Assembly: GCF_035593265.1 (NCBI RefSeq)
Contig: NZ_CP141614.1
Span: 1,798,001-1,862,000 of the forward strand
Direction of reading: 5' to 3'
Length of the DNA stretch: 64,000 nucleotides
Origin: Limnochorda sp. LNt
GTDB lineage: Bacteria; Bacillota; Limnochordia; Limnochordales; Geochordaceae
In this document: in pieces, positions 15,708-47,809 of the stretch
How the letters are laid out: each line of letters opens with the position of its first letter
Position numbering within the stretch: position 1 is the stretch's first letter
Notes under the pieces: generated by a model
What the model was told of the DNA's origin: nothing
What the model saw: only the letters and a program-made list of their open reading frames with translations
The model's database searches: none
Position numbers and translations under genes: made by a program

Positions 15708-16919
15708 TCAGGGAGTCGACGAGTCCGACGAGCGGGCGGCGTCGGCGGCACGGATGCGGGGCAGCAACCAGTTGGCCACCAGTGACGGGACGTCCAGGGT
15801 GATCCTCACCCTGACCCCCGGCGCCAGATGGTACCCGCCGCGACGGCTCGCCTCCAGGACGGGGTGACGCGCCACGCTCCACAGCTGCTCGCGCAAGGAG
15901 CGGATAGCCGCCGAGAAGAGCCCCTCCATGCGCCCCACCGCACCCGGGGTCGCGGGCCACAGGGCGGAGATCCACGCGTCGCGCTCGAGACCTGCCCCTG
16001 AGGGTGCGTCGGCGCCGCCGACGAGGGAGAGGAAGGCCAGCCACAGCTCGCCCTCCATGGCCGCCAGCCGTCGCGTCCCGCCCGGCCCCCCCACGATGAC
16101 GGGACCGCCCGCCGACGTCTGCACGTGCAGGCATGGCGGGGCGTCGGCAGGTCCGCTGACCCGCACCGGCACGGTCGCCTCGACGCGGAGCCCCTCCGGC
16201 CGGTCGGAGGCGGCGGCCGCATCGGCCAGAGCCCTCACCACGGGGTCCCGGGCCATGGCCTCGCCCTGGCGCGATCGCTGCGACGAAGGCGCTCGAGCCT
16301 CGGCCATCAGCAGCGCGGCGTACGCCAGCGCCGCGGCGCCATCCTTCTCCGCTCCGGCCAGCCGCTCGGCTGCCTCCAGGGCACGCCGCCCCTCGGCGGG
16401 CCGCCCCTCCAGCAGGTACAGCGCGCCCAGCCACAGGGCGGGGCGGAAGTCATCGGCGAGCCGCTCGCGCTGCAGTCGGAGCATGGCGCGCGCCTGAGCC
16501 TGGTACGCGCGCTGCAGCCGACGACACCGCACGGAGCGGATCACCAGCAGGCGAGCCAGGCTCTGCAGCGATGGGTTGACGGACGCCCCCGGCAGGAGGC
16601 GGGCCGCGACGTCCACCGGCAGTCGGGCATCCTCCCGACAGGCCACCAGCCAGCCGACGCCGCGCAGCATGTCGCGCTCTGCCGCCGGATCCGTGCGGGC
16701 GAGCCCTCGGGCGAGACGTTGCAGGTGCGCCCGGGCCAGGCGGTCCGCGAGGGGCGCCGCCGCCCGCCCTCCGAGGACCGGCGCCCCCCAACGCCTGGCC
16801 GCAGAGGACGAGCGGGCCTCCAAACCGCTTTCAAATTCTCTCGATGATTCAAAGACGGTCTCGATGGCCGTCGCCCTCCCTGGTCCGGACCCCGCATCCC
16901 CCGGACCGTACCTCCTCAC
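15708..16919 (-). CDS. protein of unknown function with a C-terminal winged-helix-like (regulator-type) domain
   Basis: I do not recognise the whole protein (up to 403 residues). The N-terminal two thirds are Ala/Arg/Leu-rich helices that look like a repeat or TPR-like region (for example LWLGALYLLEGRPAEGRRAL). The last ~120 residues resemble the winged helix at the end of SARP/OmpR-type regulators: a tryptophan-rich segment (AWISALWPATPGAVGRM), a helix with paired arginines (SAAIRSLREQLW) and a wing-like VLEASRRGGYHLAPGVRV. A DNA-binding role is inferred from this only. GTG 16919 is the longest start, but codons 30-45 are unusually AT-rich; TTG 16823 (371 residues) may be the true start. It ends 58 nt before the start of the HAD gene. 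Confidence 0.6.
   Translation of the reverse strand: MRRYGPGDAGSGPGRATAIETVFESSREFESGLEARSSSAARRWGAPVLGGRAAAPLADRLARAHLQRLARGLARTDPAAERDMLRGVGWLVACREDARLPVDVAARLLPGASVNPSLQSLARLLVIRSVRCRRLQRAYQAQARAMLRLQRERLADDFRPALWLGALYLLEGRPAEGRRALEAAERLAGAEKDGAAALAYAALLMAEARAPSSQRSRQGEAMARDPVVRALADAAAASDRPEGLRVEATVPVRVSGPADAPPCLHVQTSAGGPVIVGGPGGTRRLAAMEGELWLAFLSLVGGADAPSGAGLERDAWISALWPATPGAVGRMEGLFSAAIRSLREQLWSVARHPVLEASRRGGYHLAPGVRVRITLDVPSLVANWLLPRIRAADAARSSDSSTP
16824..16858 (-). promoter_or_regulatory. AT-rich patch with a TTTGAA direct repeat, possible promoter or operator
   Basis: In a region of about 70 % GC this short stretch is strikingly AT-rich and, on the minus strand, carries TTTGAA twice, 12 nt apart. 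It lies at the 5' end of the winged-helix-like gene, just before a possible TTG start at 16823. If translation starts there, the patch would be the control region; if it starts at GTG 16919 it is coding. Confidence 0.3.
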
Positions 16920-16946
16920 TTAGCCGTCCGTGCCCCTCCTCCTCTC

Positions 16947-17867
16947 TTACCAGCCGAAGCTCGTCTGCCCGTCACCCGTCGAGCCCGCGCCCGACGGCGG
17001 ACGGGTGAAGCCCGCCTCCTGCTCGAGCCGGTGCATCGTCGTCTCGAGGCGCCGGCGGACGGTCTCGTCGACGCGGTCACCTCCGCGATACAGGTCCTGA
17101 TACCGAGGACCCAACCACGGCGCCCGCCGTCGTAGCCACGCCAGGTAGACCTCCCTGGCCCCCTCGCAGAGGCGCAGGGGGCTGGCATGCACGTCGACGG
17201 CCCCCGCCTCCCGGGCAGCCCGGAGCAGCGCCGCCAGCCCGGCCGCATCGTCGGTCAGACCGGGCAGGATGGGGGCGACCATGACCCCCACGCGCACCCC
17301 CGCCTGCGCCAGCATCCGCACCGCGCGCAACCGCTGGGCGGGAGGCGGCGCGCCGGGCTCCACCGAGCGGGCCAGCGTCCGGTCCAGGGTGGTGACGGTC
17401 ATCCAGACCATGGTGCCGGGTGCCTGGCGACAGAGCTCCGCCAGCAGATCCCGATCGCGTACCACCAGCGTCGACTTCGTGACCAACGAGATGGGAGTCC
17501 GGTGCGCCAGGAAGACGGCCAGGCTCCGCCGGGTGAGCCGGAGCCTGCCCTCGGGTGGCTGATACGGGTCGGTGGCCGTGCCGACGGCCACCAGTTCCCG
17601 CCGCCAGGTGGGCCGTGCCAGCTCGGCCCGCAGGCGGCGGGGCGCGTCCAGCTTGGCGAGGATGATGCGGTCGAAGTCGTCGCCGGCGTCGTAACCCAAG
17701 AACTCGTGGGTGCGGCGGGCATAGCAGTACCGGCACGCATGGGCACAGCCGCGGTACGGGTTGAAGGACCACCGGAAGGGCATGCCCCGCACCGGGTTGA
17801 TCACCCGGGAGGCCGGCATCGGCAAGATCCGCAGCCGACCGTATGTGCCGGCGGCCGTCGCGCCCAT
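16947..17867 (-). CDS. radical SAM protein, spore photoproduct lyase-like (SplB/Rv2578c type)
   Basis: A 306-residue radical SAM enzyme. The 4Fe-4S binding motif is CAHACRYCYAR near residue 42, of the CxxxCxxC type, preceded by FNPYRGC, as in the SplB-like/Rv2578c family. Further family segments are VAVGTATDPYQPPEGRLRLT, SLVTKSTLVVRD and MVAPILPGLTDD. The true substrate of most members is unknown; DNA photoproduct repair is established only for SplB itself. ATG 17867 with SD ggggcggg is preferred over GTG 17894, because the latter lies inside an inverted repeat resembling a LexA box. It converges with nothing and follows the tpx gene after 130 nt. Confidence 0.85.
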   Translation of the reverse strand: MGATAAGTYGRLRILPMPASRVINPVRGMPFRWSFNPYRGCAHACRYCYARRTHEFLGYDAGDDFDRIILAKLDAPRRLRAELARPTWRRELVAVGTATDPYQPPEGRLRLTRRSLAVFLAHRTPISLVTKSTLVVRDRDLLAELCRQAPGTMVWMTVTTLDRTLARSVEPGAPPPAQRLRAVRMLAQAGVRVGVMVAPILPGLTDDAAGLAALLRAAREAGAVDVHASPLRLCEGAREVYLAWLRRRAPWLGPRYQDLYRGGDRVDETVRRRLETTMHRLEQEAGFTRPPSGAGSTGDGQTSFGW

Positions 17868-22501: not shown

Positions 22502-22593
22502 CCGCCCCCCTCCTCTCGTCGCATGATATGGATGCCCGGCAGGATCGGGTCGGCTCTCGCTCGAAGCCTGGCCGCGCAGGAGGCGGTCGTGCC

Positions 22594-22890
22594 ATGCCAT
22601 CCGAGGGCCAGCGGCCGCGTCTGTCCAACCGCGTGGAGCAGGCCGTCCTGAGGCTGCTCGACCAGGCGCTGGCCTACCATCCCGATGCCTGCCGCTGTCC
22701 CCGCTGTCGCCGCGACGTGGTGGCCCTCGCCCTGCGCCGTCTGCCGGCTCGCTACGCCGGCAGCGCCACCGGGGAGGTGCTCATCGACGTGGAGCTGCAG
22801 CGGGTCCAGGTGCAGGCCGAGCTGCTGGGGGCCCTCGACCAGGCCATCCGTGTCGTCAAGGCGCGCCCCCATCATGACCGGCCGGCGTGA
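22594..22890 (+). CDS. comFB: late competence development ComFB family protein
   Basis: A 98-residue protein with the ComFB domain: LDQALAYHPDACRCPRC (two CxxC-type cysteines), then RDVVALALRRLPARYAGSAT and a C-terminal helix. In B. subtilis comFB lies between comFA and comFC, but its role in DNA uptake is not clear; other ComFB-domain proteins bind cyclic dinucleotides. Here it stands alone, with no comFA or comFC. ATG 22594 has an aggaggcgg SD. It converges with the EamA transporter gene. Confidence 0.85.
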   Translation: MPSEGQRPRLSNRVEQAVLRLLDQALAYHPDACRCPRCRRDVVALALRRLPARYAGSATGEVLIDVELQRVQVQAELLGALDQAIRVVKARPHHDRPA

Positions 22891-43860: not shown

Positions 43861-44964
43861 TCACCGACGGGCATCGAGCCAGGCGCCCATGCGGGCGAAG
43901 AGGCGGATCAGGGCCTCGTGCGGGGTCATGCCGCCTCTCTTCGCGTCGTAGTCGGCCTCGGCCGTCCATTGCAGCAGTCGCCACAGCCCCTCGGTGCCCC
44001 ACCGGCGGGCGCCCTCGGCCCACCGCCGCAGGGCGACCGGCGGCCGGCCCGCGAATCGGGGAGCGAGCTCCCGCCACGCACCGGGGGGCCAGGCGCCGGG
44101 AGGGCCCCAGCGAGCCTCCAGGGCCTCGGCCATCTCCCAGGCCTCCATGACCTGCCGGCTGATGTCCCGCCAGATCCAGGCGGGGGGGACCCCCTGTCGC
44201 TGCAGCGCCAGCGACAGCGTAAGCGCGCGGGTGACGTCGCCGCCGAGCACCGCCTCGCCCACCTCGAAGCGCCGCGAGTCGGGCGCCCCGCCCGGCACGG
44301 CCGCGGCCTCCTCCGCCGACTCCAGCAGGTCCTGCGACACGACGAGCCGCACGGTCGCCTCGTCGAGGGGCTCCCCTGCCAACAGCTCCAGCTTGGCCAG
44401 CTCCTGGGGAGCCCGGTCCGGGTGGTGGCGCAGCACCCCCCGCAACCAGGCGGCGGTCGCGGGGGCCAGCCCCAGGTGCTCGACGACCCGGGCGGCGGCG
44501 GCCGATGACCCGTCACCGTCCCGGCGGCGGTCGACGACCGTGATCGCGCCGCGATTGCCCGACGCGAGGCCCTGAGCCAGCCGTCCCTCGGGCGAGGCGT
44601 CCCAGAGCACCAGCCACTCCTCCCGCAGCGGGTAGCGGGCGAGCGCCTCCAGCAGCGCACGCGCCTCCCCCGCGGGCATCGCCTCCGCGTGGCGCACCAG
44701 CACGAGGCGTGGGGTGCCGGTCAGGGTCGGGGTGCCCACGGTCTCCAGGAGGCGAGAAGCCTTCACGTCGTCGCCGAAGAGGACGAGCCGCTCCACCTCT
44801 CCCTCGGCCAGCGCCTCGACGAAGGCCTCGCCGTCAGGGGCCGACGGCGCCAGCAAGAGATAAGCCCCCGGCGGGTGCGCACCGGAGGATGCCGTCTCGT
44901 CGTGGGTCTCGCCGGTCCTGCGCTTGCGCACGCGAATCCCGTCCCGTGGCGGTCGGTCTTCCAT
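43861..44964 (-). CDS. holA: DNA polymerase III delta subunit
   Basis: Clamp-loader subunit that opens the beta clamp. The 367-residue protein has the delta layout: an N-terminal AAA-like region without P-loop (LLLAPSAPDGEAFVEALAEG, LVLFGDDVKASRLLETVGTP), a middle helical lid and a C-terminal collar (WIWRDISRQVMEAWEMAEAL, TEADYDAKRGGMTPHEALIR). The divergence level is normal for delta. It follows comEC by 10 nt, in the conserved comEA-comEC-holA-rpsT neighbourhood. Confidence 0.9.
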   Translation of the reverse strand: MEDRPPRDGIRVRKRRTGETHDETASSGAHPPGAYLLLAPSAPDGEAFVEALAEGEVERLVLFGDDVKASRLLETVGTPTLTGTPRLVLVRHAEAMPAGEARALLEALARYPLREEWLVLWDASPEGRLAQGLASGNRGAITVVDRRRDGDGSSAAAARVVEHLGLAPATAAWLRGVLRHHPDRAPQELAKLELLAGEPLDEATVRLVVSQDLLESAEEAAAVPGGAPDSRRFEVGEAVLGGDVTRALTLSLALQRQGVPPAWIWRDISRQVMEAWEMAEALEARWGPPGAWPPGAWRELAPRFAGRPPVALRRWAEGARRWGTEGLWRLLQWTAEADYDAKRGGMTPHEALIRLFARMGAWLDARR

Positions 44965-44974
44965 TCTCCCGGCT

Positions 44975-47221
44975 TCATCGCTGGGTCAGGTGGACCGGGC
45001 CGTCGCCGCGGCAGTGGCGGATGCCCGCCGATTCCCACGCCAGGCAGTGGGTGTCGACGTCGAGCAGGACGCTGCCCGCCCCCTCCATCTCCAGGCGAAG
45101 GCTGGTCCGTCCTTCGACGCGCAGCCGGATGGAGCTCGCGTGCACCTCGCTGACGGGGTGGTGCGTCGTCGAGCCCAGCACGACGGGACCCTGCTCTCCC
45201 ACCGCCAGCCAGGCCCGACTCATCGCTGCCTCCTTGGGCGACAGGCCGGGCAGCTCCGCGGAGGTCGTCGAGGATGCGCTCCACAGCGCGACCCGGGCCC
45301 GTGCCACCCCCAGACCGCTCAGGGCGGCCGCGGCCTTCTCCAAGGCCTGGCCCAGTTCCTGCCCCGGTCGTGCGTCGATCCAGAGCCAGCCGTCACCTCC
45401 CGGCGAACGACCGGCCACCACCCAGCCGGTGCCGACCGGGGCGGCGGTCACGGCGGCCGGACTCTGGCTCGCGCCCGGCAGACCGGCCGCCAGCGCCGCC
45501 CCAGCGAGATCGCCGCGACGGCCGGGCCCGTCGCGGCCTGCGCCCGTCGCCCCCGCCGCGCGACGAGCCATGCCAGGCCCGCCACGGCTGGCAGGCTCCA
45601 CGCCACCGCGCTGACCCGCAGCGCCCCAGCCGCCCTCCAGGTGAGCCCCCGCCAGCGCCAGCGCCCGGAGGGTGCCAGCCGTCCGCTCGGCGACCCACAC
45701 CGCGGGCCCGGCCAGGGACGATGGCACCAGCGCGGCCGCCAGCGCCGACCACAGGAGCAGCCCGCAGACGGGCCCTGCCCCCACGCTGACCACCGCCCCC
45801 AGCAGCGACACCCGGCCGAAGTAGAGGGCGGTCAAGGGCGTGATGGCCGCCCAGGCGGCCAACGACAGCCCCAGCGCCTCGAGCATCCGCCCCGTCACCC
45901 TTCGCAGGGCGCGGCGGCGCGCCCGGGCGTCGACCGGGCCCGGCGGCGCTCGGCCCGCTCGGGGCCTGCCCAGGAAGAGCGCGATGGCCAGCGTGGCCAG
46001 ATAGGACATCTGAAAGCCGGCGTCGGCCCCCAGTCCCGGGCTCGAGAGGAGCATCTGCGCCGCGGCGGCCACTCCCAGGATGGTGGCCAGGGAGGACCGG
46101 CGTCCCGCCATCCACAGGGCCATGCCCAGCGACTGCATCAAACCGGCCCGTACCGCCGGAGGGGCCAGCCCGGTCATGCCCGCGTAGGCCCATCCCGTGG
46201 CGCAGGCCACGATGGCGGCGCCCAGTCGGGCCACCCAGCGGGAGCGGGGCAGGCGTCGCACGACCGCCACCAGAGGGCCGGCCAGCAGTCCCACGTGCAG
46301 CCCCGAGACCGACAGGACGTGACCCAGTCCTGCCTCCCACAGCGCCTGCTCGTCCGCCTCGGCCAGGGCATCGCGGTGCCCCAGCACCACCGCCCTCGCC
46401 CAGGCGGCTCCCTGGGGCCCCAGCCTCGTCTCGAGCCGCCGCGCCATGGTCTCGCCCATGGCCGCGACAGCGGCGCGCAGGCGGATGGTCGCAGGCGCAC
46501 GCGGCGGCTCAGCGGGCACGGCCAGGCGGCTCTCGGATCGCACCTCGACCACCAGGCCCACGCCGCGGGCGCCGAGGTAGCGACGCAGCGAGAAGTCGCC
46601 TGGGAAGGCCCCCGTCTCGGGCCGGCGCACCAGGCCTCGGGCCGCCACCCACATGCCCGGCCGCCACGACCGACCCCGGCGGTCGCCGGCCGGCACCGCC
46701 ACCTCCACGTCGCAGGCAGCGCACGCCAGCCGTCGCCGGGCGGTGCCGCCGATGGGACCTCCGCCAGACGCGCGTCCCGCAGGAGCAGATAGGTGGCGTA
46801 ACGGGTCACGAGCGGGGGCTCGACCACCCAGCCGCCCACCCACGCCACCCGGCCCGGCTCCAGGGAGGCCAGCGAGCCGGCCTGCCGCTCGAGCCGGCAC
46901 GCCTCCACCACGCCCCCACCGCCGCGGCCAGGGCGACCAGCGCGGCCAGGCAGCGCCCTCGACGCCGGGCCACCGCCGGGACCGGCGCTCTGAGCCCCCC
47001 CGGCCAGGGCTGGTACGGCGGAGGCCAGCCGGGCAGGGCGACCGGAGCCCGCCCGCTCGCAGCCGCCTCCGCCACCTGCGAACGGCGCGCCCGACGCCTC
47101 TCACCAGCGCCAGGCCCGCCGCCAGCCCCAGCACGGAGGCCGGTGCGGCAGGCTCCCACCCGCCGAGGGCAGCCGCCGCCATGCCGGCGGCCATCCCCCA
47201 CGCCACGGCACCGACGCCCAC
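44975..47221 (-). CDS. comEC: competence protein ComEC/Rec2, frame broken in several places
   Basis: ComEC forms the DNA channel across the membrane in natural transformation. The main frame clearly encodes the channel core, for example GAWARAVVLGHRDALAEADE, LGHVLSVSGLHVGLLAGPLV and DAGFQMSYLATLAIALFLGR. The N-terminal ~160 codons, however, are split over three frames. A membrane segment (CLAALVALAAAVGAWW) is in one and the segment VAWVGGWVVEPPLVTRYATY in another, with jumps near 47100, 46900 and 46745. A further helix (VSAVAWSLPAVAGLAWLVAR) is out of frame between about 45640 and 45490. The C-terminal metallo-hydrolase domain of B. subtilis ComEC is absent or very short. Either a decaying gene or sequence errors. 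Confidence 0.85.
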   Translation of the reverse strand: MGVGAVAWGMAAGMAAAALGGWEPAAPASVLGLAAGLALVRGVGRAVRRWRRRLRAGGLRSPCPAGLRRTSPGRGGSERRSRRWPGVEGAAWPRWSPWPRRWGRGGGVPARAAGRLAGLPGAGPGGVGGRLGGRAPARDPLRHLSAPAGRASGGGPIGGTARRRLACAACDVEVAVPAGDRRGRSWRPGMWVAARGLVRRPETGAFPGDFSLRRYLGARGVGLVVEVRSESRLAVPAEPPRAPATIRLRAAVAAMGETMARRLETRLGPQGAAWARAVVLGHRDALAEADEQALWEAGLGHVLSVSGLHVGLLAGPLVAVVRRLPRSRWVARLGAAIVACATGWAYAGMTGLAPPAVRAGLMQSLGMALWMAGRRSSLATILGVAAAAQMLLSSPGLGADAGFQMSYLATLAIALFLGRPRAGRAPPGPVDARARRRALRRVTGRMLEALGLSLAAWAAITPLTALYFGRVSLLGAVVSVGAGPVCGLLLWSALAAALVPSSLAGPAVWVAERTAGTLRALALAGAHLEGGWGAAGQRGGVEPASRGGPGMARRAAGATGAGRDGPGRRGDLAGAALAAGLPGASQSPAAVTAAPVGTGWVVAGRSPGGDGWLWIDARPGQELGQALEKAAAALSGLGVARARVALWSASSTTSAELPGLSPKEAAMSRAWLAVGEQGPVVLGSTTHHPVSEVHASSIRLRVEGRTSLRLEMEGAGSVLLDVDTHCLAWESAGIRHCRGDGPVHLTQR

Positions 47222-47239
47222 GGCCTGCCGGCGGCTCCC

Positions 47240-47809
47240 TCACCCGTCCCCGATACAGACGGTCACCAGCGGCCGCAGCCGCTCCAGCGTCTTGGGGCCG
47301 ATGCCGGTCACCTCGAGCAGGTCGTCGACCAGTCGAAACGGCCCGTGACGCTCACGGAAGGCCACGATGCGCGCGGCCAGCACGGGGCCGATGCCCGGCA
47401 GGGCCTCGAGCTGCTCGGCGGTGGCCACGTTGAGGTCGATACGCCCGTGCTCCCCCTCCGGGCAAGCACCGCCGCCCTCCGCGGGAGCCCCCACGGGTGT
47501 GGCACCGTCGTCGGCACCGGCCTGCGGACCGCTGCCGGCCTCGGATGCCGCGGCAGATGGCGCCCCGGCCGCCTGTGCCACCCCGTCGATCCCCGCCTCC
47601 CGGCCTCCCTGCATCACGGGGCCCGGCACGATGACCACGGGCTCGCCCGCCAGCTCCATGCCGACCCGGATCCCCACGCCGACGAGCGCCACGGAGAGCA
47701 GGCAACGGGCCACCCCGCCCGACAGGCTCGCGCGCGCCAGCCTGGCTAACGCCAGGCGCCGCCGCACCCGGCCTGCATCCGGCCACTCGCTGGTATCTGG
47801 CACGTCCAT
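47240..47809 (-). CDS. comEA: competence protein ComEA (helix-hairpin-helix DNA receptor)
   Basis: Membrane-anchored DNA receptor for transformation. The 189-residue product has a basic N-terminus, a membrane helix ([20 protein letters not shown]), a flexible Gly/Ala-rich linker and a C-terminal double HhH domain: [40 protein letters not shown] and [20 protein letters not shown]. An SLBB domain is not obvious, so the receptor is shorter than that of B. subtilis. It is directly upstream of comEC (18 nt). Confidence 0.92.

Follow-up and report, generated by a model that had tools for sequence, protein, structure and literature searches.

Frame jumps in the comEC gene of Limnochorda sp. LNt lie in very G+C-rich sequence and are probably errors of the assembly

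The comEC gene in the assembled chromosome of Limnochorda sp. LNt changes reading frame at five places, and these frame jumps are very probably consensus errors of the assembly and not mutations of the organism. They look like sequencing errors because they lie at very G+C-rich sites and unrelated genes are broken in similar sequence; this reading is favoured since the jumps track G+C, hit unrelated genes and fit an assembly made by the Nanopore, Flye and Pilon route. The organism's own comEC is, we infer, most likely intact and read in one ordinary frame. The gene was analysed in a stretch of 64,000 nucleotides (the window; positions 1,798,001-1,862,000 of the single 3,019,339-bp contig of the genome, here G000), and coordinates for comEC and its neighbours are those of the window. 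The nearest relatives used for comparison were G001 (same genus, about 800 contigs), in which a contig end cuts comEC so that the gene is incomplete, and G002 and G003 (same family), whose ComEC proteins are 96% identical. The genome of G002 is a single 3,313,549-bp contig and the window is mostly syntenic with it, so that a gene-by-gene comparison was possible.

As assembled, comEC is an open reading frame of 748 amino acids with a GTG start on the minus strand (44975-47221), in which the channel core is in frame while the N-terminal portion and one C-terminal stretch are out of frame. This single frame spans all five jumps with no stop and comEC is therefore garbled in stretches, not cut by stops. 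The Competence core (PF03772) was matched at residues 279-517 with 137.9 bits (cut-off 23), and DUF4131 (PF13567; common, not universal) was matched over profile positions 107-163 only, with 23 bits against a cut-off of 31.6 that the ComEC proteins of G001, G002 and G003 all reach. The full-length equivalog TIGR00361, searched in the window protein only and not in its relatives, gave 55.4 bits, under the cut-off of 190.05. Lactamase_B (PF00753; also common, not universal) was not matched in ComEC of the window, G002 or G003, nor in the truncated G001 protein, and was present in all 7 other Limnochordia ComEC proteins tested. According to a passage of PMC6299819 this domain has been repeatedly lost and gained in ComEC, and DUF4131 with Competence is a known profile; its absence here is thus ordinary. 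The C-terminal ~200 amino acids of Geochordaceae ComEC (L005, L004 and window 44975-45660) had no Pfam match at E <= 0.001. Upstream lies comEA, encoding a helix-hairpin-helix DNA receptor (47240-47809, minus strand), and downstream a holA-like gene for DNA polymerase III delta (43861-44964, minus strand; TIGR01128 58.4 bits, below the cut-off of 80), which is one open frame and showed no frame jump against G002.

Jumps were placed with a frameshift-tolerant protein-to-DNA aligner, run at two penalties against the ComEC proteins of 13 relatives and used instead of plain tblastn, which aligned across frames. Against the nearest relatives the jumps fell at 47,056-47,078, 46,908-46,944, 46,708, 45,624-45,654 and 45,505. 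With G001 as query they were found, at both penalties, at 47,078, 46,908 and 46,708, each reading as a missing base; with G003 at 47,056, 46,944, 46,708, 45,654 and 45,505 at both penalties, with a further pair (45,974/45,916) at the lower one; and with G002 at 46,944, 46,708, 45,624 and 45,505, a pair (47,069/47,026) being added only when the penalty was lowered. On the minus strand the approximate intervals are accordingly 47050-47085 for jump 1 (47,069 with G002, seen only under the lower penalty), 46900-46945 for jump 2, 46700-46760 for jump 3, where codon usage also switches (46,754/46,756), 45620-45660 for jump 4 and 45495-45515 for jump 5, which restores the frame and forms with jump 4 a compensating pair near the C-terminus (G002, G003). 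Of the five, confidence is lowest for jumps 1 and 2; jump 2 is a missing base by G001 and an extra base, about 36 bp away, by G002 and G003. The five frame changes over three frames reported in the initial annotation were thus borne out, as was its placing of recognisable ComEC segments in different frames around the channel core: in the minus-strand frames CLAALVALAAAVGAWW lies in the first, the core in the second, and VAWVGGWVVEPPLVTRYATY and VSAVAWSLPAVAGLAWLVAR in the third. Its description of the gene as split holds for the frame changes and not for the coding stretch, which one 748-residue frame covers without a stop, and its proposal of one missing base per N-terminal jump holds with G001 and not with G002 and G003, which give jump 2 the opposite sign.

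All five comEC jumps lie between the 97.3 and 99.97 percentiles of local G+C (300-bp windows, 284 kb of G000). Two stretches of the window exceed 0.82 G+C (300-bp G+C of at least 0.82; no strand), and together they hold 4/5 of the comEC jumps: 46801-47253 contains jumps 1 and 2, and 45385-45786 contains jumps 4 and 5. For a wider view, G000 was compared with G002 gene by gene, using coding segments trimmed by a model. The first census covered the window and its surroundings, 264 kb in all, with 211 aligned coding segments from G002, and the second an adjoining 180 kb (167 segments), picked by synteny before any gene comparison, of which 20 kb (L046) had been retrieved earlier; pooled, they comprise 444 kb of G000, 337 kb of it aligned. 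To be counted, a jump had to be flanked on each side by 15 or more aligned residues, and jumps at segment edges were excluded; the comEC jump at 46,944 failed a stricter score test in the 264-kb census, yet was counted. Removal of overlapping queries reduced 19 jumps to 17, a pair in a response regulator being dropped. An earlier census confined to the window (51 aligned queries) was discarded, since its stop-to-stop frames included upstream non-coding sequence and its jumps outside comEC were judged by eye to be edge effects.

In the 264-kb census seven genes carried 15 jumps between them: four each in comEC and a chemotaxis-receptor-like gene, two each in nuoN and a response regulator, and one each in nuoL, nuoI and a spoIIIAE-like gene. 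Of these, nuoL and nuoI are named by profile matches above cut-offs and the others, comEC aside, by matches below them; within the window, jumps other than those at edges were confined to comEC. Per kb, this census had about 0.03 jumps below G+C 0.78, 2.2 between 0.80 and 0.81, and 5.4 from 0.81 upwards. In the 180-kb census three genes carried 4 jumps, each at G+C 0.777-0.793, and the 655 aligned bp of this stretch at 0.80 or above were free of jumps. One of the three is dprA, whose location agrees with that from a separate search, and the other two we read, presumptively, as fliH-like and DAK/FakA-like. In the pooled data 13/17 jumps lie within the 4.9% of aligned sequence at G+C >= 0.78. 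Internal jumps occur in 5/9 genes that have 100 bp or more at G+C >= 0.80 and in 4/366 others (Fisher p 2.5e-7), in 4/8 against 4/366 genes at the same threshold when comEC is left out (p 5.9e-6), and in 7/51 against 2/324 genes at G+C >= 0.78 (p 1.7e-5). This gene-level Fisher test is safer than a binomial p, which takes clustered jumps as independent. Jumps outside extreme G+C lie 15 residues before the end of nuoI, 22 residues into the spoIIIAE-like gene and, as a pair, in the response regulator, and genes in G+C-rich sequence were jump-free in 4/9 cases at >= 0.80 and in 44/51 at >= 0.78. In the reverse comparison, with G002 DNA as control, 5 genes had jumps, none of them with any sequence at G+C >= 0.78, and 0/18 genes holding 100 bp or more at that G+C had a jump. 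This control is weak because G002 offers too little G+C-rich sequence, with roughly a quarter of the G000 amount at >= 0.78 and just 2 genes that have 100 bp at >= 0.80, and 0/18 against 7/51 is no clear difference alone.

A search independent of the aligner also found nuoL split between frames, with TIGR01974 matched at 1,892,593-1,894,035 and again at 1,892,135-1,892,479. A second, intact copy of nuoL lies at 1,475,562-1,477,319; because of it the nuoL jump alone is no proof of error, and the argument that a broken essential nuoL must be an error was dropped. Frame jumps in the nuoN and nuoL genes (G000 1890678-1894035) lie in G+C-rich sequence, and the chemotaxis-receptor-like gene (G000 1915734-1917064) has four jumps of the missing-base type within ~140 bp at G+C 0.81-0.83. 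A compensating pair of jumps was also seen, against G002, in the C-terminal part of dprA (G000 1637904-1639028). Five other G000 stretches with G+C >= 0.82 were examined by codon usage: in L045 a Melibiase-domain gene (15771-17355) showed a jump near 16,098-16,119, within a stretch of G+C 0.82 and upstream of the domain, which is suggestive only, the piece upstream of the domain having no Pfam match; L048 and L051 showed no jump, and L041 and L047 were ambiguous.

The way in which the genome was probably assembled fits this distribution. Closed genomes have been described in PMC11456536 for two Geochordaceae isolates, Geochorda subterranea LN-T and Carboxydochorda subterranea L945-T, which in the relevant passage are separated by RuBisCO, present in L945-T and not so in LN-T. 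RuBisCO is present in G002 and none was found in G000, and because this matches the distinction drawn there G000 is taken to be Geochorda subterranea LN-T. The identification works by elimination: of 14 genomes of its order, G000, G002 and G005 consist of one contig each, and the paper lists three closed genomes for the order, two of which RuBisCO tells apart. The same source gives the LN-T assembly as Flye on Nanopore reads followed by Illumina correction with two Pilon iterations, and that of L945-T as hybrid SPAdes. For two reference strains, a section of PMC6807382 reports more than 10x the indels of a hybrid assembly after Flye and Pilon on ONT reads, and a tendency for small errors to concentrate where Illumina coverage was very low. 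The present chromosome would thus have been built from Nanopore data, with Illumina reads used for correction; at a local G+C of ~0.78 or more the correction would often have failed and small Nanopore indels would have persisted, and several such indels may have gathered in comEC, which holds the window's two most G+C-rich stretches. The gene of the organism would then be one intact frame encoding DUF4131 and Competence without a metallo-beta-lactamase domain, like that of its nearest relatives.

The main rival, that comEC is a true recent pseudogene or encodes a garbled full-length protein, natural transformation having been abandoned and the channel left unselected after the pilus was gone, is unlikely. 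In its favour, G000 had no T2SSE-type motor (PilB/PilT) above cut-off when all 41 candidates were scored (one weak match, E 9.4e-4), and neither prepilin peptidase nor PilM was found in it by search, the three being present in both G002 and G003. With none of these found, comEC could be dispensable and its real loss is biologically plausible, and the concentration of five jumps in one gene of the window points the same way, as does the precedent of Piscirickettsia salmonis, in which comEC is interrupted by transposable elements and other competence genes remain (PMC12955456, in part). Against this stand the gene itself and its relatives. The aligned path carries no stop against G001, G002 or G003. 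The core is not accelerated, Tajima-type counts for G000:G001 over 265 columns being 28:24, 18:26, 17:27 and 22:28 with four outgroups. The out-of-frame parts are as conserved towards G001 as the intact genes of G001 and G002 are towards each other: 24/56 residues of 47,077-46,909 and 29/66 of 46,908-46,709 are identical to G001, compared with 18/54 and 26/63 between G001 and G002 over the same parts. Moreover, G+C-linked jumps of the same kind occur in nuoL, nuoN, the chemotaxis-receptor-like gene and others. Genuine decay would have no reason to track local G+C across unrelated genes, whereas failed short-read correction would be expected to do so.

The absence of a motor also has a wider setting. 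Among the 41 genomes compared 13 lack a strong T2SSE match (E < 1e-10, our own line; G007 and G008 have weak matches over the Pfam cut-off), and all 13, G000 included, have comEC. In the other 12 (G004-G009, G011-G013, G020, G024 and G027) comEC is open (651-1042 amino acids) and stands beside a ComEA-type gene, matched within 0.85 kb of the core match and above the family cut-off in 10/12. Prepilin peptidase was found in neither of the two motor-poor genomes tested for it, G000 and G005, and some absences of pilus genes may be gaps because many of the genomes are drafts in many contigs. As far as these sequences go, motor absence is not associated with a broken comEC in this group. That Limnochordales and some other Limnochordia keep comEA-comEC without a type IV pilus, G000 with an intact comEC being one case, is a tentative and rather doubtful extension of these observations; such a pilus-free pair may serve DNA uptake or another role, within a class in which cultivated Geochordaceae are bounded by two membranes. 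G000, where no pilus motor was found, also encodes what we take to be a secretin-like protein (L048, 8688-9986).

Between the two readings offered in the initial annotation, indel errors of the assembly and a lost DNA channel, the first is therefore preferred; the second finds no support in the gene itself, whose path is free of stops, whose core is not accelerated and whose displaced segments are conserved. The refuting condition named in that annotation, out-of-frame segments that are not conserved, fails on identities matching those of intact genes. The retention of comEA stands, the gene being one open frame with TIGR00426 at 60.2 bits (cut-off 53.1). A comFB-type gene is likewise present (22570-22884, plus strand; one open frame, PF10719 65.3 bits, cut-off 25), and its being alone is ordinary because ComFB also occurs in G002 and G003, in G002 within the stretch syntenic with the window.

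It is highly improbable that the out-of-frame segments are not ComEC and that the aligner fitted Ala/Gly/Arg-rich translations to low-complexity helices by chance. The aligner does produce spurious jumps between distant ComECs: among the ComECs of the relatives at least one jump arose in 14/24 control comparisons, one of them in the N-terminal linker between G002 and the 96%-identical G003, and ten more distant ComECs gave scattered jumps on the window (L020 none at the higher penalty), so that it is trustworthy for near relatives only. The codon-usage model, run alone, supports one comEC jump, that at 46,754/46,756, and leaves 46,915-47,245 unassigned, the remaining jumps therefore resting on homologues, which disagree between G001 and G002 on the type of jump 2. 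A chance fit is nevertheless hard to reconcile with segment identities to G001 that equal or exceed those between intact orthologues, with a jump 3 that is the same to the base with G001, G002 and G003 while the others agree within about 40 bp, with the jump-free comparison of G001 and G002 in both directions, or with the 18 jump-free G002 genes that have 100 bp at G+C >= 0.78. With five sites to account for, programmed frameshifting was considered unlikely.

For G000, claims of gene loss are unsafe where local G+C exceeds ~0.78, since nuoL, nuoN, the chemotaxis-receptor-like gene, dprA and others also jump. More generally, setting jumps against local G+C, with a differently assembled relative as control, helps to tell decay from error without raw reads.

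The window protein resembles ComEC/Rec2 in its Competence core above cut-off and its apparent, below-cut-off DUF4131 remnant, and its gene in having comEA directly upstream and the holA-like gene downstream, an order shared with G002. It differs in that the N-terminal part of DUF4131 and one C-terminal stretch are out of frame and in lacking Lactamase_B, a domain also missing from the open ComEC frames of G002 and G003. Short-read-polished Nanopore assemblies (PMC6807382, in part) are alike in that small indels lead to frame jumps and in following the route reported for LN-T; here, unlike there, the errors are tied to extreme G+C by gene comparison and not by read coverage. The comEC pseudogenes of Piscirickettsia salmonis, as partly described, provide a likeness in that comEA, comFB and dprA are still present in G000, and a difference in the lesions themselves, which are transposable elements there and, in G000, small jumps shared with other genes.
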